A DNA stretch of 14,039 nucleotides, from the NCBI GenBank assembly GCA_021820645.1, contig JAKADJ010000031.1:1-14039 (forward strand), read 5' to 3'. The notes beneath the pieces were generated by a model. The model ran no database searches and was not told the DNA's origin. It was given only the letters and a program-made list of their open reading frames with translations. Shown piece after piece: positions 630 to 13,401 of this stretch (its first letter is position 1; each line of letters opens with the position of its first letter). The translations under genes and the position numbers were made by a program. This stretch comes from Bacillota bacterium. Lineage in GTDB: Bacteria > Bacillota_E > Sulfobacillia > Sulfobacillales > Sulfobacillaceae.

Positions 630-1418
630 ATGCCCGAGTTGGACAATGAATGGCCTAAGGCCTACGAGGGTTGGATTTCTTCTGCCGGGAAGGATCTTGA
701 AGCATCAAACTGGGGCGAGGCCTTTCGAACCTATCCGTGGCCACGTTACACAAGTTCGCCATGGACTCCCCTGGCCAAACCCCTCGAAGAGGCCCGGATT
801 GCGGTGGTGAGCTCAGGCGGATTAAGCCTTCCTGGACAAACGCTGTTCGACGAGACGGTACTCGAGGGGGATGCCGGCATCCGCATTGTCCAGGCTTCGG
901 ATCTGCCCTTGTGGGGGTGGCAAGTGCGCCATGGTCACTATGATCCGACGGCAGCTCAAGCCGATTACAATGTCATCATGCCGATCGATGTCGTGAAGGC
1001 GTTGGCCGAAGATGGGGTGGTGGGGGCGCTCGCCCCTCGTCATGTCTCGTTCCTCGGGTTTCAGACTAACGTTGGGAAGTTCATGCAGGATACCGTGCCA
1101 CCCATCGCGGAGATGTTTCGCGACGATGGGGTCGATGCCGTGTTGTTGGTCCCGGTCTGACCCATTTGCCACCAATCGGTCGGGTTGGTACAGCGATATC
1201 TCGAGGACATGGGCTTTAGCACCGTGGGTCTTTCTAATCTGAAGGCTTACACGCGCCGGGTCATGCCGCCCCGCACGCTGGTGGTTCCAGGCCCTCGCGG
1301 GGAGACTGTGGGGCCAGCGCATGACCCGGAGGAACAGCGGCGGCGGGTTCGGGCGGCGATAAGCCTTTTGACGACGGCCGAAGCGCCAGGGGTCATGGTG
1401 GATCTTCCCGGCGAGTAA
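630..1418 (+). CDS. GrdB/PrdB-family reductase with in-frame TGA read as selenocysteine
   Basis: A single reading frame of 262 residues is interrupted only by TGA at 1158-1160 (codon 177). Before the TGA the protein ends in VLLVPV; after it, in the same frame, comes PICHQSVGLVQRYLEDMGF and 85 residues in all to a TAA. Read through, the centre is VPV-U-PICHQSVG, a UxxC redox motif like those in the selenoprotein B family of glycine/betaine/sarcosine/D-proline reductases and their Cys homologues. The protein is much shorter than true GrdB (over 400 residues) and nearer PrdB in length. The start is set by GAGAGGAG at 613-620, nine bases before the ATG. A SECIS-like hairpin lies at 1171-1189. In GrdB-type enzymes the selenol attacks the substrate; what this protein reduces is unknown. 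If the genome lacks Sec genes, the TGA would instead make it a pseudogene. Family call is fairly sure; recoding is inferred. Confidence 0.85.
1158..1160 (+). other. Predicted selenocysteine codon (TGA)
   Basis: This TGA is in frame within the GrdB/PrdB-like gene. It takes the place where related proteins carry Sec or Cys, three residues before a Cys (UxxC). Protein-like sequence continues in the same frame for 85 more codons, and a GGUC-loop hairpin follows at the proper distance. Recoding is an inference from these points together. Confidence 0.8.
1166..1193 (+). promoter_or_regulatory. Bacterial SECIS-like hairpin
   Basis: ACCAATC (1171-1177) pairs with GGTTGGT (1183-1189) to give a 7-bp stem with one G-U pair, closing a five-base loop GGUCG (1178-1182). 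A small internal loop (CC opposite A) and three more pairs (1166-1168 with 1191-1193) can extend it. The loop begins 17 bases after the TGA. As I recall the E. coli fdhF element, its GGUCU loop begins 18 bases after the UGA, and that GGUC is what SelB contacts. Position, stem length and loop bases all fit a bSECIS element that would bring SelB-GTP-Sec-tRNA to the ribosome. Confidence 0.72.
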
Positions 1419-6422: not shown

Positions 6423-7433
6423 ATGGAAACTCTAACTTATTCTCAAGATACTACGTCTGGCCGGGTGGTAGCTGTAATACCTGCCCATAACGAAGCCCGA
6501 TTTATCGGGAGTGTGGTGCTTTCCGCACGGAATTACTGTGATGTGGTTATTGTTGTGGATGATGGTTCCTCTGACCATACGGCCGATCTGGCAGAAGCGG
6601 CAGGAGCCGTGGTGGTGCGTCGACCCATTCAGGGGGGGAAGGGGGCTGCCCTAAACGTAGGATTTGAGGAAGCTTTGGCTTACCTGCCGCAAGCCACCGT
6701 CATTTTAGATGGAGATGCCCAACATGACCCCGCTGAAATTGGTGTGGTAGCGGCCCCGATACTCGGTGGATTAGCCGACGTGGTGGTGGGATCACGTTTT
6801 TTGACCGACGACCGGCGCGCAATCCCTTGGTGGCGTCAGATTGGACAAATTGTTCTGACCGTCATTACCAATCAGGCCAGTGGGGTTCGATTGACCGATT
6901 CTCAGACGGGCTACCGTGCCTTTTCCAAAGAAGCGCTACGCTCGCTACGATTCCGTTCGGCGGGGCTTTCGGTTGAATCGGAAATGCAGTTTTTGTTGAA
7001 AAGTGCTCAACTCCGAATTGTTGAAGTCCCCATTCATGTTCAATATTTGGACGGCAACAAACGGAACCCGGTGCGGCACGGTCTTACAATAATCGACACT
7101 ATCGTCGGGCTGATTGCACGTCGGCGGCCGCTCCTGTTTTTTTCCGTTCCGGGATTCTGTTTTGTCGTGATAGGGCTGTTGTTTGGTTATAACTCCTTTC
7201 ACATATTACAGGTTCGTCATGTCATTCCTCCTCTGTCGACGATGCTGGGGACTATCCTTTTGGTGGTCGGACTTCTCTTTGGGGTAACAGGGACGATTCT
7301 CAACACGCTGGAGCATTTTGCCGTGCGGGTGACGGACGAACTCCTCGAATTAACTCGGAGTCACGCCTCATCGCCGATTGAGGAGGTGAAAACCAATCTT
7401 GAAAGCCTTAGCCGTCATACTCGTAACTTATAA
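6423..7433 (+). CDS. Family 2 glycosyltransferase, DPM1-like, with two membrane helices
   Basis: This 336-residue protein has a GT-A catalytic domain. PAHNE (20-24) and VDDGSSD (45-51) bind the nucleotide, Asp96-Gly-Asp98 (in ILDGDAQHDP) is the metal-binding DxD, and DSQTGYRAF near 160 lies in the acceptor region seen in dolichol-phosphate-mannose-synthase-like enzymes. Two hydrophobic helices follow at about 235-257 and 270-296, then a hydrophilic tail. Such proteins usually move a hexose from a nucleotide sugar to a polyprenyl phosphate on the cytoplasmic face of the membrane. It is the first gene of the operon and has a strong ribosome site, AGGAGG (6409-6414), eight bases before the ATG. 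Its 3' end overlaps the next gene by 35 bases. The sugar used cannot be told. Confidence 0.93.
   Translation: METLTYSQDTTSGRVVAVIPAHNEARFIGSVVLSARNYCDVVIVVDDGSSDHTADLAEAAGAVVVRRPIQGGKGAALNVGFEEALAYLPQATVILDGDAQHDPAEIGVVAAPILGGLADVVVGSRFLTDDRRAIPWWRQIGQIVLTVITNQASGVRLTDSQTGYRAFSKEALRSLRFRSAGLSVESEMQFLLKSAQLRIVEVPIHVQYLDGNKRNPVRHGLTIIDTIVGLIARRRPLLFFSVPGFCFVVIGLLFGYNSFHILQVRHVIPPLSTMLGTILLVVGLLFGVTGTILNTLEHFAVRVTDELLELTRSHASSPIEEVKTNLESLSRHTRNL
7380..7388 (+). promoter_or_regulatory. Ribosome site setting the TTG start at 7399
   Basis: GAGGAGGTG lies inside the end of the preceding gene, ten bases before TTG 7399. It is near-perfect and supports this rare start codon; the GT-A fold begins right after it. 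Confidence 0.75.
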
Positions 7434-8457
7434 CAGTCGTAGTATCATCGGTCATTGTTTAGAAAGTATCGTAAACCAAACTGGCGATGAAACCGAGATC
7501 ATTGTGGTCGATAACGACTCATCCGACGAGACCTGCTCTTGGATTCGCGAGAATTACCCTAAAGTGAGGGTTCTCGCTCAGAGTCAAAATTTCGGGTACG
7601 GATTTGCGGCGAACCTCGGTGTCAGGAAGTCTCGGGCCGAAGTGGTCATGGTGTCGAACCCGGACGTTCGGTTTACGGAGGGAAGCATTCGCCTTTTGCT
7701 GGACGCTGTGGAATCGAGTCGAGACTCATTTGTCACCCCTAAACTTACCCTTCCTAACGGAAATATTAATGCATGCGGTAATACGATCCACACCTCGGGC
7801 ATCGTTAGTTGTCAGTATTTTGGTGAACCACCTTCCCGCTACCGCAATACGTTTGCCGTTCCTTTATTGTCAGGAGCCGTAATCGTAGCCACACGGGATG
7901 TTTGGATAAAAACAGGGGGCTTCGATCCAGAGATCTTCATGTACATGGAAGACGCAGAATTAAGCCTCCGTGCCCGTCTGATGGGTATGGCTCTCTATTG
8001 CGTGGCAGATGCGGTCGTGATCCATGATTACGATTTGAATTTGTCTCCTACAAAGTTCTATTGGCTGGAGAGGCATAGATTTTGGACCATTTATAAACTG
8101 TTTTCCGTACCCGCATTAATACGAATGATACCAAGTCTCATCCTGACCGCGAGCGCAACCTGGTTTTTCGCGCTCGTGAAGGGTCCCCGCTATTTGGGGG
8201 CCCGTCTTGGGGCAAGTATTTGGATAGGGTCCCGGTTATGGAGGCTACGCGGACTTCGTAGGCAGCTAAAGCCTATCAAGGTGCGCACGGATTTCGACAT
8301 CTTAAGGGACTGCACGACGGATTTGCCGTTAAAGCAACTGATTTCATCTCCGATGTCCGAGCGCTTATTACCGCATGTAAAGCGTGTTTACGAATTCGTG
8401 CGTCCTGTACGCGCGTCGATTGCCTATGGGGATGCTCAAGAGGAGCGAATGTTATGA
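7399..8457 (+). CDS. Family 2 glycosyltransferase, rhamnosyltransferase-like
   Basis: Translation most likely starts at a TTG and gives 352 residues. The order is VILVTYNS (6-13), VVDNDSSD (36-43), then SNPDVRF with Asn87-Pro-Asp89 in place of the usual DxD, then LLSGAVIVATRDVW and GGFDPEIFMYMEDAELSLR, the ED motif that normally holds the catalytic base. This NPD plus ED pattern is typical of WbbL/RfbF-like enzymes, often rhamnosyltransferases. The C-terminal 130 residues are basic with hydrophobic stretches (RMIPSLILTASATWFFALV) that could touch the membrane. It overlaps the upstream gene by 35 bases and the downstream gene by four (ATGA), so translation is probably coupled. Donor and acceptor are unknown. 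Confidence 0.93.
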   Translation: MKALAVILVTYNSRSIIGHCLESIVNQTGDETEIIVVDNDSSDETCSWIRENYPKVRVLAQSQNFGYGFAANLGVRKSRAEVVMVSNPDVRFTEGSIRLLLDAVESSRDSFVTPKLTLPNGNINACGNTIHTSGIVSCQYFGEPPSRYRNTFAVPLLSGAVIVATRDVWIKTGGFDPEIFMYMEDAELSLRARLMGMALYCVADAVVIHDYDLNLSPTKFYWLERHRFWTIYKLFSVPALIRMIPSLILTASATWFFALVKGPRYLGARLGASIWIGSRLWRLRGLRRQLKPIKVRTDFDILRDCTTDLPLKQLISSPMSERLLPHVKRVYEFVRPVRASIAYGDAQEERML

Positions 8458-9605
8458 GGATTGCCGTGGTTACTGCTACCTTCCCGCCGTACTACGGTGG
8501 GGCGGGCAATGTGGCTTATCACAACGCCAGGCTTCTTTGGGAGCGTGGACACCAAATTACCGTATTTACTCTTGCGCGGGCGGGGGGCATGGAGATTAGC
8601 GCACCGTTTCCTGTGGAGTACCTTCGGCCTCTACTCGCCTTCGGGAATGCTGGATTCGCACCAAGCCTTTCGCGACGACTACGCGGGTACGACCTGATTC
8701 ATTTGCATTATCCCTTTATCTTTGGCGCCGAAATGGTGCTGGCTGCGGCACGACGATGGCATATTCCTATCATGGTGACCTATCATAATCGCCTTGAGGA
8801 GACCCAGCCAATCAAACGTGCTCTGTTTCGAGCCTATAACCGGACGATGGAACCTCTCGTTCTTTCATGGGCTTCCGTCATTGTGTCCGTGAGCCACGAT
8901 CACTTCCGCTATTTATTCCCTGGAGTGCCAGATGTTGAAGTTCCCAATGGTGTGGACACCACAAATTTTGCTCCGGGTAAACGGTTGGTGGCCCGTCAAA
9001 TCATCGGGCCATCGACATCCGATCCCATTGTCTTGTTCGTTGGGGCTTTGGATCGGGCCCATCGTTTTAAGAATGTTCCGGCGCTCTTGAAAGCCCTTGC
9101 AGCGCTTCCGCACATTACCGGCATCATCGCCGGAGATGGAAACCTGCGCCAAGAGTTTGTGACATTGGCGAGTCGCTTGGGGATTGGGTCTCGCGTTCGC
9201 TTTGTGGGGTCACTAACAACTGATGAACTTGCCATATATTATCGGGCGGCCGATGTCACCGTACTACCTTCTTCTGCTACTGAATCGTTTGGCATGGTCT
9301 TAGTGGAGTCGATGGCGTGTGGTACGCCGGTGGTCGCGTCCGATTTGCCGGGAGTGCGGGAGGTTGTTCTTCACAAGAAAACGGGCCTTTTGACGACGCC
9401 AGGAAGTGTACCGTCGTTGCATAACGGGATTGAGTGGATGGTTCGTCACAAAGAGGAACGTGAAGCGATGGGACGAGCTGGTCGCGAGCACGTGGTTTCG
9501 AAATATTCATGGGATGTGATCGCCCGAAATCTCGAGGATGCGTGTCGCGTGGCCGCGGCATCACCGACATCCGGTTTTCGGCAAGGCGTCTTTGGGTGGC
9601 GGTAG
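8454..9605 (+). CDS. GT4-type glycosyltransferase (first of three)
   Basis: The 383 residues form a GT-B fold without an obvious membrane segment. The N-terminal domain begins RIAVVTATFPPYYGGAGN, with the glycine-rich loop near the acceptor. The linker carries EVPNGVDTTNF, the C-terminal domain opens with IVLFVGALDRAHRFKN, and the donor-binding EX7E motif is Glu277 and Glu285 in ESFGMVLVESMACGTPVV. GT4 enzymes are retaining transferases using nucleotide sugars, usually on the cytoplasmic side of the membrane. The ATG overlaps the previous stop (ATGA) and has AGAGGAG eight bases upstream. The last 15 residues are low in structure. A mannosyl- or glucosyltransferase is plausible but not shown. 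Confidence 0.95.
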   Translation: MRIAVVTATFPPYYGGAGNVAYHNARLLWERGHQITVFTLARAGGMEISAPFPVEYLRPLLAFGNAGFAPSLSRRLRGYDLIHLHYPFIFGAEMVLAAARRWHIPIMVTYHNRLEETQPIKRALFRAYNRTMEPLVLSWASVIVSVSHDHFRYLFPGVPDVEVPNGVDTTNFAPGKRLVARQIIGPSTSDPIVLFVGALDRAHRFKNVPALLKALAALPHITGIIAGDGNLRQEFVTLASRLGIGSRVRFVGSLTTDELAIYYRAADVTVLPSSATESFGMVLVESMACGTPVVASDLPGVREVVLHKKTGLLTTPGSVPSLHNGIEWMVRHKEEREAMGRAGREHVVSKYSWDVIARNLEDACRVAAASPTSGFRQGVFGWR

Positions 9606-9616
9606 AGCGCTGGTGC

Positions 9617-9625
9617 AAGGAGGGG
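9617..9625 (+). promoter_or_regulatory. Ribosome site setting the ATG at 9632
   Basis: AAGGAGGGG six bases before ATG 9632 marks the real start of the unknown gene. Longer in-frame starts inside the preceding glycosyltransferase lack such a site. Confidence 0.75.
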
Positions 9626-9631
9626 CAAGAC

Positions 9632-10144
9632 ATGCAAGTCACGTGGTCTCTAAACGGTGCCGACCACCGGCCATTGCCATCCGAAATGGCTTGGCAATAC
9701 GCGTTGAGCTTAGTGTGGGCCCACGCTCATGCCTCAAAGGTTCAACGCTTGGTCTGTATTAGCCCATGGACACCCATCATCGGACTCATCCCACGCGAGG
9801 AAGACGAGTGTAGTGACATGGGGGGACCTTTTCGGGAGGCCTTGGCATTTTTCGGATCACAGCCAGAATGGCCAGGTCAGGCAAGCATCGTGTATACCTT
9901 CGCGACTCGTGAAGGTAGGGCGCTGAGGCCACCTGATAGTTGGCGTATCCGGGAGCGGTACTATTTATACACCCACGCGTCCAAGGTGTTTGGTATCGTC
10001 ATGCGAATTGGGGCCTGGCTTCGAAGGCCTGGCATGGAGGACTGGGGGGTGTGTGGTGTTCGCCGGCATTATCTCTCTACGACACCACGATTGGCCTCGT
10101 ATCGACTATCTATCTGGATGCCAAGAAAGGAAGACTCGTTATGA
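9632..10144 (+). CDS. Unknown 170-residue protein inside the glycosyltransferase operon
   Basis: I do not recognise this protein. It begins MQVTWSLNGADHRPLPSEM and is rich in Trp (about nine), Arg and Pro, with no signal peptide or clear membrane helix. Segments LVCISPWTPIIGLIPREED and ALAFFGSQPEW look like strands and loops of a compact domain; RERYYLYTHASKVFGIVMRI is a probable amphipathic helix. It has no nucleotide-sugar, methyltransferase or acetyltransferase motif that I can see. The gene is convincing: excellent ribosome site, 26 bases after the previous stop, and an ATGA overlap with the next glycosyltransferase gene, so it is translated as part of the operon. It could be an accessory or sugar-modifying protein of this glycan pathway; that is inference from position. 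Confidence 0.75.
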   Translation: MQVTWSLNGADHRPLPSEMAWQYALSLVWAHAHASKVQRLVCISPWTPIIGLIPREEDECSDMGGPFREALAFFGSQPEWPGQASIVYTFATREGRALRPPDSWRIRERYYLYTHASKVFGIVMRIGAWLRRPGMEDWGVCGVRRHYLSTTPRLASYRLSIWMPRKEDSL

Positions 10145-11265
10145 GGCCCATGCTGAAAGTGGCCATCGCTAATTCTGAATCCCTAGATCAGCATGGTGGC
10201 ATCAGTCGTGTTTTACGTGAGCTGACGACACGGTGGCAGAAAGACACCATTTCCAGCGTGGCTCATTTTGAGACGTCATCTCTCCCGATGATTCGCCGCT
10301 ACCCCCGCAGTCTTTGCACCGAGGCCAATGTCGATCTGGTATATCTACCGCGCACCGGGGGTGCTACCGCGCTAAAACGACTGGCGTTGCCGAGTGTCGT
10401 CACCGTGCACGACGTAGGATTTTGGGATTGTCCGGAGGATTCTCGAGTGCTTGGGTGGCAGCGTGCGCTCATCCTGCCGCATTTTCGGGCACTTTCAAAT
10501 GCCACACGAGTCGTAGTGGACTCGGTCTTTACGGGTAATCGTTTAGAGGCGCTCGTTCCGTCAGTTGCTGAAAAAATTCGGGTGGTCTATTTAGGCGTGA
10601 GTGAGGTGTTCCTTCGTTGGTCGCTCAACCGCGAGGCGTCTCGGGTCATCGTCGCCTCGCGTGTCCCTGAACTCGCTGATGGGCCCTTTCTTATTTACGC
10701 AGGAGACGACGCGCCCAGAAAGAATTTGTCGCTTCTGATCGCTGTGTTTCGCGAGATAAAAGAGGTGTATCCGAAGGCACAATTGTTGAAGGTTGGCCGG
10801 GCAAAACTTCCGGATGATCGGAAGCGCACGCTTGGGGTGCTGAGTCAGTTCCGATTAACTCCAAGTCAGGACGTGTTGTTTTTTGATGACGCTGACGACG
10901 CATTATTGGCGGCGCTGTATGCGGCGAGTGATGTATTCGTCTCCGCCAGCTTGTATGAAGGGTTTGGATTGCCTCCGTTGGAGGCCATGGCTGTTGGAAC
11001 GCCTGCGGTGGTAACCAACCAAGGGGCTTTTCCCGAAATACTGTCGGATTACGCCAGTGTCGTTGCGCCCGACGTGTCTACGATGGCTAACGCGATATTT
11101 GAAGTCCTAAACGGGACAGCCAGTCTTCCCCCTACCGATGACTTAAAGCGCTATGCGAGGCGGTATTCGTGGGATACGGCGGCAGAAGCATATTTAAATC
11201 TCTTTTATGAGGTGTCCCATCAAAGAGATTGGGGGCTAAACGTGCGAGGGGGGGATCTGGCGTGA
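10141..11265 (+). CDS. GT4-type glycosyltransferase (second of three)
   Basis: Of 374 residues from ATG 10141, the first half has LKVAIANSESLDQHGGISRVL with the acceptor-side glycine pair and VVTVHDVGFWD. The second half has FLIYAGDDAPRKNLSLLI and the EX7E motif (Glu273, Glu281) in YEGFGLPPLEAMAVGTP. This order is that of RfaB/mannosyltransferase-like GT4 enzymes. An ATG at 10150 is a possible alternative start. AAAGGA, nine bases before 10141, and the four-base ATGA overlap with the preceding gene favour 10141; the open frame reaching further upstream overlaps the 170-residue gene and is not used. It ends in a GTGA overlap with the third GT4 gene. Confidence 0.94.
   Translation: MRPMLKVAIANSESLDQHGGISRVLRELTTRWQKDTISSVAHFETSSLPMIRRYPRSLCTEANVDLVYLPRTGGATALKRLALPSVVTVHDVGFWDCPEDSRVLGWQRALILPHFRALSNATRVVVDSVFTGNRLEALVPSVAEKIRVVYLGVSEVFLRWSLNREASRVIVASRVPELADGPFLIYAGDDAPRKNLSLLIAVFREIKEVYPKAQLLKVGRAKLPDDRKRTLGVLSQFRLTPSQDVLFFDDADDALLAALYAASDVFVSASLYEGFGLPPLEAMAVGTPAVVTNQGAFPEILSDYASVVAPDVSTMANAIFEVLNGTASLPPTDDLKRYARRYSWDTAAEAYLNLFYEVSHQRDWGLNVRGGDLA
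11246..11254 (+). promoter_or_regulatory. Ribosome site setting the GTG start at 11262
   Basis: GAGGGGGGG lies seven bases before GTG 11262, within the end of the upstream gene. It favours this start over the in-frame TTG at 11229, which would add 11 residues unlike a GT-B first strand. Confidence 0.65.
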
Positions 11266-12479
11266 AGATTTTACATTTGCTGGGCGAGGTACGTCTTCCG
11301 CGTGATCCTAGCCAAGAACCCGCAAGCGGAATTGTTCGCACAGCCCTAGAGATTGCGCGGCTACAAGCTTCTGATGGTTACCAGGTGACGGTGGCCACTG
11401 CCGGGGCAGTGCCGTGGACATCGTCCTGGGAGGGCGTTGAGTTGCTCACCCTTCCCTGGTGGTCATGGGCCAAGATCTCGGTATTGGGTCGACAACTCGA
11501 CTTTCGGCTTCATGGAGCTTATGCATCGAGAACGAGGACCAAGAAATACGACGTGATTCATGCGCATGATTACGCATATTTTCGGGCGTTGCGGTCCCAA
11601 TGGAAAATCATGCATTTCCACTCTGATCCCATGTATCGAGGCGTCGATTCTTCTCATGGGGCGTGGCAACCTCGAGACTTTGAGACGGTGAAAAGGGCGG
11701 CATCGGTCGTCATAGCGCCAAGCCAATTTATGAAACGGCGTCTTGAAGGGGCCTTTGGGGAGTGGGGAGGGATTCACGTAGTACCTAACGGTGTGGATTT
11801 ACAAATATTTAACCCAGAGAGATGGTCGGCATCTCGGGCGTCGTTGCGGTCTAAATGGGGAGTACCCGAGACATCAATACTGTTTTTCTATTGTGGCGCG
11901 ATTAATGCGTTGAAGGGGGTGAGTGAGCTGACCGAGGCCTTTTGTGAGGTGGCTCGGAGGAATTCTTCCGTGCATCTGGTTCTTGCAGGCTCTAGTACAT
12001 TATGGGGCGGCAAAGAGGGGGAAAGTGCCTACGAGGAACATATTAAACACATGTTGGAACCACTGTATCACCAGGGGCGCGTCCGATTTCTTGGTCTACT
12101 CCCGCAAAGCTCAATCGCCGAAGCCTTTCAAGCGTGTGACGTTGCCGTGGTTCCGTCCAAGACAGAGTCGTTCGGGATTTCGGCCTTAGAGGCTCAAGCT
12201 AGCGGCCGTCCGGTCATCGCTTCGAGAGCAGGGGCGCTGCCGGAACTCGTGGACGAAATGAATGGGGTTTTAGTAGACCCAGGAGACGTTAAGCAATTAG
12301 CTGCGGCCATGGACGATTTGGCGAGAAATCCTTTGAAGCGCCAGTGGCTCGGGACCAATGCCACGAAGGCCACCCAGGCTAAGACCTGGCATGAGACTTA
12401 CCGACGTGTTCGGGAAGTCTACGCCACTCTGAGTACTATCGATAGCCATGGGCGCATCCTTTGGTCGAAGCAGGGCTAG
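11262..12479 (+). CDS. GT4-type glycosyltransferase (third of three)
   Basis: The 405-residue GT-B protein starts KILHLLGEVRLPRD, a little unusual in having a long insert before the GIVRTALEIARL helix. It continues with YDVIHAHDYAYF and MHFHSDP in the acceptor domain, HVVPNGVDLQIFNP in the linker, ILFFYCGAINALKGV opening the donor domain, and EX7E (Glu302, Glu310) in ESFGISALEAQASGRPVI. The last 20 residues are polar. The GTG start overlaps the preceding TGA by four bases (GTGA), so it should be translated with the second GT4 gene. Each of the three GT4 enzymes differs strongly in sequence, so each probably adds a different sugar or linkage. Confidence 0.95.
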   Translation: MKILHLLGEVRLPRDPSQEPASGIVRTALEIARLQASDGYQVTVATAGAVPWTSSWEGVELLTLPWWSWAKISVLGRQLDFRLHGAYASRTRTKKYDVIHAHDYAYFRALRSQWKIMHFHSDPMYRGVDSSHGAWQPRDFETVKRAASVVIAPSQFMKRRLEGAFGEWGGIHVVPNGVDLQIFNPERWSASRASLRSKWGVPETSILFFYCGAINALKGVSELTEAFCEVARRNSSVHLVLAGSSTLWGGKEGESAYEEHIKHMLEPLYHQGRVRFLGLLPQSSIAEAFQACDVAVVPSKTESFGISALEAQASGRPVIASRAGALPELVDEMNGVLVDPGDVKQLAAAMDDLARNPLKRQWLGTNATKATQAKTWHETYRRVREVYATLSTIDSHGRILWSKQG

Positions 12480-12510
12480 GAGCGAGAATGCATGATGTCG
12501 CCCATTGAAT

Positions 12511-12517
12511 GGAGGAG
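12511..12517 (+). promoter_or_regulatory. Ribosome site for the deacetylase gene
   Basis: GGAGGAG is followed after five bases by GTG 12523 and after eleven by TTG 12529, both in frame. The TTG at 12505 precedes it and is unlikely to be used. Confidence 0.6.
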
Positions 12518-12522
12518 CGCTG

Positions 12523-13401
12523 GTGGAATTGGGTGTGTTGATTCAATTCACGGACTGGGTGCGAGGACAATGCCGATATCCCCAAAAGATGTTAGGTCGC
12601 GATATCAAGCACTTATCGCCATCAGACAACACAAGTCGGCGCATTTTGGTCTTTGCGGCTCACCCCGATGATGAAGTCATCGGAATTGGTGGGCTTTTAG
12701 CCGGGCATGTTCGTCGAGGGGATCACGTGTTTCTCGTGTTCACCACCAACGGACGGGGAAAGGGGTGGTTTACCCGGGTCAAAAATCAAGCGCAATACGT
12801 GGATCAGAGATATCGAGAGGCTTTTAATGCCGCCGATGTGTTGGGAATTCCTAGACACCGGATGTGTTTTCTGGGATTTCCTGACGGGACGTTATATCGC
12901 TATATGCCATACCTACTATTAGACGTTAATTATGTCTTTCGCGAGGTGAGGCCGCATCGCGTTTACGTACATGCTCTTGAAGGCGGCCATGTGGATCATG
13001 ACGCTACAAACGTAGTTGTACGGGCGGCGTCACGGGAAATAGATTTCACCCACGTCTGGGAATGGGCGGAGTATAGTCGCACCGTAGACGTTGGGGATCC
13101 TTCCATAAACTTTCCGACGGGCCCCAATACGGAACCCGTGTTAAAGATCCCAACGCGATGGGACATAAAGAAACCACTATTGAATGCCTATAGTTCCCAA
13201 CCCCCCGCTCAACGTGCAAGCCACCATTTCGAGGTGGTTCGCAAGGCTAATTTCGGAACGCTGAAACAGGAAATTGATGAAATTTATGGAGGAAGTGGGC
13301 CGAACGCGAAGATTGCGAGCCAACTTTCTCGGATTATCGATCCCTTGAACGGAGTCAGCCTATTTTCTTTCGTCGGGGCCGCAAATCGGATCATGCCCTG
13401 A
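12523..13401 (+). CDS. PIG-L/LmbE-family N-deacetylase
   Basis: These zinc-dependent enzymes remove acetyl from N-acetylglucosamine units, for example in GPI, mycothiol and bacillithiol synthesis, and on glycans or antibiotics. From GTG 12523 the protein has 292 residues. RILVFAAHPDDEVIGIGG holds the metal-binding and catalytic AHPDDE (His47, Asp49, Asp50), and GGHVDHDATN gives the third ligand and partner residues (His156, Asp158, His159). About 40 residues precede the first strand, longer than in compact members, and may interact with a partner or membrane. The C-terminal half (after 190) is poorly conserved. The gene lies 43 bases after the third GT4 gene in the same direction. A role in deacetylating an amino sugar of the operon's glycan is the natural inference; a low-molecular-weight thiol pathway is an alternative. 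Confidence 0.92.
   Translation: MELGVLIQFTDWVRGQCRYPQKMLGRDIKHLSPSDNTSRRILVFAAHPDDEVIGIGGLLAGHVRRGDHVFLVFTTNGRGKGWFTRVKNQAQYVDQRYREAFNAADVLGIPRHRMCFLGFPDGTLYRYMPYLLLDVNYVFREVRPHRVYVHALEGGHVDHDATNVVVRAASREIDFTHVWEWAEYSRTVDVGDPSINFPTGPNTEPVLKIPTRWDIKKPLLNAYSSQPPAQRASHHFEVVRKANFGTLKQEIDEIYGGSGPNAKIASQLSRIIDPLNGVSLFSFVGAANRIMP

Follow-up and report, generated by a model that had tools for sequence, protein, structure and literature searches.

The window, as the whole 14,039-nucleotide stretch of DNA analysed here is called, almost certainly encodes a selenoprotein at 630–1418 on the + strand, with selenocysteine (Sec) predicted from comparative sequence evidence at the UGA at 1158–1160. The protein is a PrdB-like, half-length GrdB and is very probably neither a D-proline reductase nor a glycine reductase, and it is also quite probable that the two statements hold jointly.

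Reading frame and conservation of the UGA codon

The interval 630–1418 (+) forms a single 262-codon frame, opening with ATG at 630 and closing with TAA at 1416–1418, which an in-frame TGA at 1158–1160 divides into 176 residues upstream and 85 codons downstream. A Shine-Dalgarno-like GAGAGGAG (613–620, +), identified by reading of the sequence, lies 9 nt before the ATG. Translated with TGA as U, the frame yields a 262-residue protein matching PF07355 and TIGR04483, in which the motif around Sec177 reads V-P-V-U-P-I-C-H-Q, placing the TGA in a UxxC motif (U-P-I-C-H-Q) whose cysteine, C180, is encoded by the UGC at 1167–1169 (+) and is invariant in a 50-row protein alignment. The earlier note had described one TGA splitting a single frame, and the same protein family is indeed conserved on both sides of it; as that note also held, ordinary gene calling would give a truncated 176-residue protein (630–1160) and a 77-residue product starting from TTG 1185 (1185–1418).

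An alignment of homologues at column 177, which had been asked for earlier, finds the Sec codon in most copies: across 79 genome loci the homologous codon is TGA in 67, TGC in 9, TGT in 2 and TAA in 1, so that Cys occupies 11 of the 79; since the pattern used for the scan came from the segment immediately ahead of the UGA in an alignment mostly of UGA-ended homologues, 67/79 is no unbiased census. Among 30 loci belonging to the same class as the nearest relative, scored by best match, the codon is TGA in 27, TCG in 2 and GGA in 1; here 39 of the 154 class genomes matched, four loci are the same genes as L001–L004, and a few sit in longer, GrdB-like frames. A protein search returned 83 homologues. 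All 19 short database homologues aligned, which were chosen for shortness, stop exactly at residue 176, and the 20 full-length database rows aligned carry Cys (11) or Ser (9) at the Sec column.

The stretch after the TGA behaves as coding sequence. By itself it matches TIGR04483 (27 bits, E 2.8e-6), and past the UGA the window shares 61 of 82 residues with its nearest relative, L126, different codons being used for 43 of the shared residues, with differences at codon positions 1/2/3 numbering 17/13/55; before the UGA, 93 of 173 residues are identical. This codon-position pattern places the stretch after the supposed stop under protein-level selection, since a real stop would leave neither such identity nor differences lying mostly at the third position.

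Several copies vary at or around this site. Ser replaces Sec, with the UxxC Cys kept, in nine database rows (P0018, P0020, P0024, P0035, P0038, P0039, P0040, P0043 and P0048) and also at loci L117 and L119, and these Ser forms raise the question whether Sec is always needed. L121 (G108) is a frame-broken copy with GGA at the Sec column. A Geobacteraceae MAG carries TAA at this column (L073:10406–10408) together with 4 of the 8 pairs of the hairpin described below, in a genome with SelB and tRNA-Sec; this copy is perhaps dying. Genome G140 holds tandem UGA-bearing paralogues (L132:9087–9752 and 10058–10777), the first of which reads V-U-P-E-C-C-R and forms 3/8 hairpin pairs in the register used. 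In addition, at eight loci sharing a CTRAVG motif (L022, L031, L042, L047, L049, L054, L056 and L074) the frame after the UGA averages about 247 residues, which suggests that these proteins are considerably extended at the C-terminus.

A covarying hairpin downstream of the UGA

A SECIS hairpin is predicted at 1171–1189 (+) from the minimum-energy fold, covariation and RNAalifold, with a stem pairing 1171–1177 with 1183–1189 around the loop GGUCG (1178–1182), which begins 17 nt after the UGA. bSECIS elements are recognised by a hairpin shortly after the UGA whose loop begins with G; the window's element follows soon after the UGA, and its loop likewise opens with G. The hairpin presumably resembles that of E. 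coli fdhF. In the register used, column 1 is the U of the UGA and columns 14–21 pair with columns 25–32 (8 pairs). The window forms 7 of these 8 pairs, the innermost being G-G, and the hairpin is present in its own minimum-energy fold.

Across 75 distinct UGA rows, 86.7% of cells are paired versus 65.4% in shuffles, compensatory cells number 134 versus 52.8 ± 6.8, and the covariation score is 0.536 versus 0.158, none of these values being reached by any of 500 shuffles; when the partner is slid by 1–3 columns, the score falls to 0.060–0.097. Two stricter measures on the same rows are weaker: there are 6 pairs changed on both sides, a number that 25/500 shuffles reach, and 20 further pair types, which 37/500 reach. 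In a set of 50 hand-thinned rows, 90.8% of cells are paired, compensatory cells number 60 versus 14.7 ± 3.2 and the score is 0.493 versus 0.148, while the values of the same two stricter measures are reached by 181/500 and 15/500 shuffles; RNAalifold recovers the helix unaided from these 50 rows.

Because related rows can beat shuffles without any structure, the control with Cys rows matters: in 11 such rows hairpin covariation was not found, with 58.0% of cells paired versus 59.1% shuffled and a score of 0.068 versus 0.058. The fold energy of the window's single sequence is ordinary, being no more stable than shuffles (z −0.03), so that the evidence for the hairpin is covariation and not energy. 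Both L079 and the second L132 copy form 3/8 hairpin pairs.

Selenium machinery in related genomes

SelB scores above its cut-off in 18 of the 22 genomes behind the loci versus 2 of 14 controls. At the Rfam cut-off (RF01852), tRNA-Sec is found in 19 of the 22 genomes but also in 5 of the 14 controls, and a stricter, self-set threshold of 60 bits was therefore applied, above which 18 of the 22 genomes retain a match. Among the 14 UGA-form genomes, 13 have SelB, 12 have tRNA-Sec above 60 bits and 12 have both, the exceptions being G004 and G006. In G006, a MAG by its title, the best tRNA-Sec match reaches 48.9 bits; in G004, likewise a MAG by its title and the UGA-form source of L004 and L133, no SelA, SelB, SelD or tRNA-Sec was found. 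Both SelB and tRNA-Sec occur in four of the seven Cys-form genomes, two Ramlibacter genomes have neither, and G017 has SelB just below the cut-off (239.9 vs 242.25) with tRNA-Sec at 69.3 bits.

The class genomes are similarly equipped, with SelB above the cut-off in 18/20, tRNA-Sec above 60 bits in 7/8, SelA in 9/10 (the match in G140 has an internal TAA and that in G080 lies in two pieces) and SelD in 9/10, the best SelD match in all nine bearing an in-frame TGA. Selenoproteins are on record for Sulfobacillus: one study describes a Sec-containing formate dehydrogenase in every Sulfobacillus genome that it covers (PMC4378227), and a Sec peroxiredoxin is reported for S. thermotolerans (PMC7409299). 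Collectively, the conserved UGA column, its Cys and Ser counterparts, the covarying hairpin and the selenium machinery in relatives support the proposal of the earlier note that the TGA is decoded as selenocysteine.

Family placement and the missing pyruvoyl subunit

PF07355 matches the protein at 56.2 bits (gathering threshold 22), its profile positions 200–345 of 347 aligning with residues 30–174, which precede the UGA. The joined protein matches TIGR04483 over residues 43–262 at 129.7 bits (E 1.1e-37), and the part before the TGA alone at 87.8 bits; as the cut-off of this model is 300, the protein is PrdB-like and, by that rule, not PrdB. It shares with the D-proline reductase subunit PrdB (TIGR04483) its length class (model of 238 positions) and the position of UxxC, whereas it scores below 300 bits and its relatives lack a PrdA-type subunit. 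Similarly, the C-terminal half and the UxxC site align with protein B of glycine, sarcosine and betaine reductase (GrdB, GrdF and GrdH), but those models span 431–435 positions against 262 residues here. Glycine-reductase protein B is expected to have about 430 residues and a GrdE partner; this protein has 262 residues, and no such partner is found in its 28 short-form relatives.

GrdB is described as working in complex with GrdA and GrdC (PMC13188914) and as paired with GrdE, PrdB and PrdA being homologues of GrdB and GrdE (PMC9751293). The relatives here show no sign of such a pairing. PF09338, the family that covers the pyruvoyl subunit (PrdA/GrdE), has no match in any of the 28 genomes chosen because they carry the short form (27 with UGA, 1 with Cys), a count in which fragmented MAGs could hide this gene; it is present in G147 and G148, both picked for a full-length GrdB (458-residue frame, one UGA). 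From this distribution across genomes, the short form seems to work without a pyruvoyl subunit, and the absence in all 28 genomes together with the score of 129.7 against 300 bits makes the name 'D-proline reductase' very likely wrong for the window protein.

The earlier description of a short GrdB/PrdB-like protein outside a glycine-reductase operon is thus correct. Its further statement that the short form has no assigned reaction needs one qualification: literature and databases do assign a reaction by name, D-proline reductase PrdB, and the evidence speaks against that name. A comparable GrdB-related pair is FarB/FarE of monofluoroacetate dehalorespiration, where a radical SAM gene lies in the FarB operon and the grdB genes of the strain are predicted to carry Sec (PMC10838667); as described there, FarB has a homologue of GrdE as its partner, unlike the relatives here, in which none is found.

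Two readings would overturn this assignment. It is scarcely credible that the UGA is a genuine stop or a sequencing error, leaving a 176-residue protein or a pseudogene: automatic calling does end at the UGA (also in P0002) and L073 has UAA at the column, but such a stop would be common to 67 of the 79 loci, would be followed by a stretch still under protein-level selection, and would have hairpin covariation tied to it. The second reading makes the protein a true PrdB, or a glycine-reductase-type subunit, served by a PrdA/GrdE-like pyruvoyl protein encoded elsewhere. TIGR04483 PrdB is the best NCBIfam match, and several homologues are named 'D-proline reductase (dithiol) PrdB' in their sources; set against the shortfall from the cut-off, the missing PF09338 in every short-form genome and the absence of any prd or grd partner among the eight window proteins scanned with Pfam, this is very improbable.

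Predicted structure and proposed mechanism

The single-chain AlphaFold model is confident (pLDDT 95.5, pTM 0.93) and places U177 between strand 170–174 and helix 178–193, with C180 in the first turn of the helix. Such placement, from a strand into the first turn of a helix, is usual for redox-active Cys pairs. The residues D112, P118, P175, C180, E192, G195, R215 and G224 are invariant in the 50 rows, and no solved structure is a clear relative.

In the mechanism we propose, SelB positioned on the mRNA hairpin, the loop of which begins 17 nt past the UGA, would deliver Sec-tRNA to the UGA at 1158–1160, generating a product with Sec177 in UxxC that would be a stand-alone member of the short, PrdB-like branch within the GrdB family. 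The selenolate of Sec177 may then attack a small substrate at an electrophilic atom, Cys180 would resolve the product to form a selenenylsulfide, and a thioredoxin-type dithiol would reduce this bond, with no pyruvoyl subunit involved. A selenol-thiol reductase with a thioredoxin-type donor is suggested by the missing PF09338, the modelled placement of U177 and C180 and the invariant residues, and a stand-alone selenol/thiol reductase is accordingly the favoured, if provisional, reading of function. Its role may be to remove, by reduction, some small electrophile that is toxic or unwanted; a thiol-linked detoxifying reductase is a plausible description, held with somewhat less than even confidence.

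Gene neighbourhood and possible partners

An aldo/keto reductase gene (1–606, +; PF00248, 6.3e-43), cut by the left end of the window, lies directly upstream of the selenoprotein gene, agreeing with the neighbour named in the earlier note; the two genes share a strand and are separated by 23 nt, so that they are perhaps one transcript. L126 likewise has an aldo/keto reductase directly upstream, and there the reductase (L126:8285–9251) is split over two frames, reflecting a broken gene or a sequencing error. Beyond L126, no aldo/keto reductase match was found near the gene in 99 loci (four of them repeats), and the window's own reductase used as a query gave no match in 79 loci. The next scanned + strand gene downstream of the selenoprotein gene encodes a COX15/CtaA-type protein. 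A 75-residue ORF at 1451–1678 (−) faces the selenoprotein gene and has no Pfam match; farther on, 6423–13401 contains several glycosyltransferase-like ORFs, recognised by eye, and a PIG-L deacetylase at 12505–13401, perhaps forming a surface-polysaccharide cluster.

The gene tree places the window in a nine-row clade (support 98/100) with L126, L001, L002, L003, L004, L130, L131 and L132. No neighbour gene is constant across loci, and in six of the nine clade rows genes for mercury or heavy metals lie at most about 10 kb away. Specifically, MerA above its cut-off lies near the gene in L004 (G004) and L132 (G140), whereas in L130, L131, L002 and L003 a heavy-metal ATPase occurs near it together with a regulator of the MerR family, the distance being 0.7 kb for both G128 and G129, 4.4 kb for G002 and about 10 kb for G003. 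Downstream of the L004 gene stand a type II haloacid dehalogenase and then MerA (577.4 bits, cut-off 454.45), and upstream of it genes for three proteins: a radical SAM protein resembling TrsS (325.9 against a cut-off of 490), a methyltransferase of the DVU_1556 family (157.6 against 155) and a protein related to SelL (85.9 against 120). The pairing of a TrsS-like radical SAM protein with a DVU_1556-type methyltransferase is found near the gene in L003 and L004 (Bacillota) and in L008 (Acidobacteria), the L008 methyltransferase being below the cut-off (128.1). A 2026 review describes most of a set of selenoproteins that it lists, among them SaoB, SaoC, SaoP and SaoX, as implicated in metal resistance, and TrsS appears in its table (PMC13188914).

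Across 20 genomes, 3 of 8 MerA copies above the cut-off are found no more than 3 kb from a gene of the short form (in G004, G115 and G140, G115 having no tree row), and of the 29 ATPase copies counted across 11 genomes, 3 are no more than 5 kb away. Random placement would give P values of 3.9e-6 for MerA and 5.5e-4 for the ATPase, the latter becoming 0.0095 when G129 is dropped; as these values assume independence, the rows are related and the distances were chosen after looking, metal-gene proximity is only a lead. No gene of the metal, radical SAM or methyltransferase set was seen by locus queries in L126, of which 0.9 kb of right flank is visible, or in L001, and none was seen in the window by Pfam scans of eight of its proteins or by eye, with 1.2 kb of DNA visible on the left. 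Even with weak matches to general relatives included, 11 of 79 loci match any MerA, ATPase, MerR, radical SAM or methyltransferase query, and of the 154 class genomes 5 contain the radical SAM gene, 2 of them close to the selenoprotein gene.

These neighbourhoods bear on two narrower proposals about function. The gap of 23 nt on one strand and the recurrence of the arrangement in L126 would fit a selenoprotein working with the upstream aldo/keto reductase in one small-molecule pathway, but the lack of a match in the remaining loci (79, or 99 with the four repeats) and the split frame of the L126 reductase leave such a partnership distinctly unlikely. Slightly better placed, yet still doubtful, is a part in metal or metalloid detoxification, in which the Sec-thiol pair would bind or reduce mercury, organomercury or arsenic species or would cleave a carbon-metal bond; equally tentative is the corollary that, in the window's clade, its partners would be MerA, a heavy-metal P-type ATPase or the TrsS-like radical SAM/methyltransferase pair. 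Such genes accompany two-thirds of that well-supported clade, three MerA copies sit close by, and the radical SAM and methyltransferase genes recur at three loci. Against this stand L001, the window and L126, the last two with little flanking DNA visible on one side, the small share of loci with any such match, the rarity of the radical SAM gene near the selenoprotein gene, the relatedness of the rows, the post hoc distances and the weaker ATPase link once G129 is removed.

Relation to known selenoproteins and significance

The window protein belongs to a selenoprotein group already known, the UxxC 'PrdB' proteins of PF07355, since Sec-containing members were reported from the Sargasso Sea in 2005 (42 Sec genes; PMC1088965) and from the GOS samples in 2008 (235 Sec and 110 Cys homologues, pfam07355; PMC2398784), the latter study counting 'PrdB' selenoproteins as one of the most abundant groups that it sampled (PMC2398784). 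The marine proteins share with it PF07355 (in the GOS set), UxxC with Sec and the existence of Cys counterparts; in contrast, the gene tree here points to a host close to Sulfobacillus. The marine 'PrdB' proteins presumably represent the same short branch as the window protein. The family appears in two reviews under D-proline reductase, TIGR04483, UxxC (PMC9312934, PMC13188914), and in the accessible portions of the open-access literature, including PMC5029168 and PMC12013277, no paper was found in which the short form is tested or its lack of a pyruvoyl subunit remarked on.

Short PrdB-like selenoproteins might represent separate, pyruvoyl-free selenol reductases, with the window's clade engaged in metal or organometal detoxification beside MerA, ATPases and the TrsS-like pair, a combined picture that we regard as speculative and rather unlikely in its entirety. 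Such genes are truncated at the UGA by gene calling, and several are named D-proline reductase in databases; the lack of the pyruvoyl subunit in all 28 genomes makes this name testable and probably wrong for the group. The substrate, once found, would show the purpose of a widespread selenoprotein.
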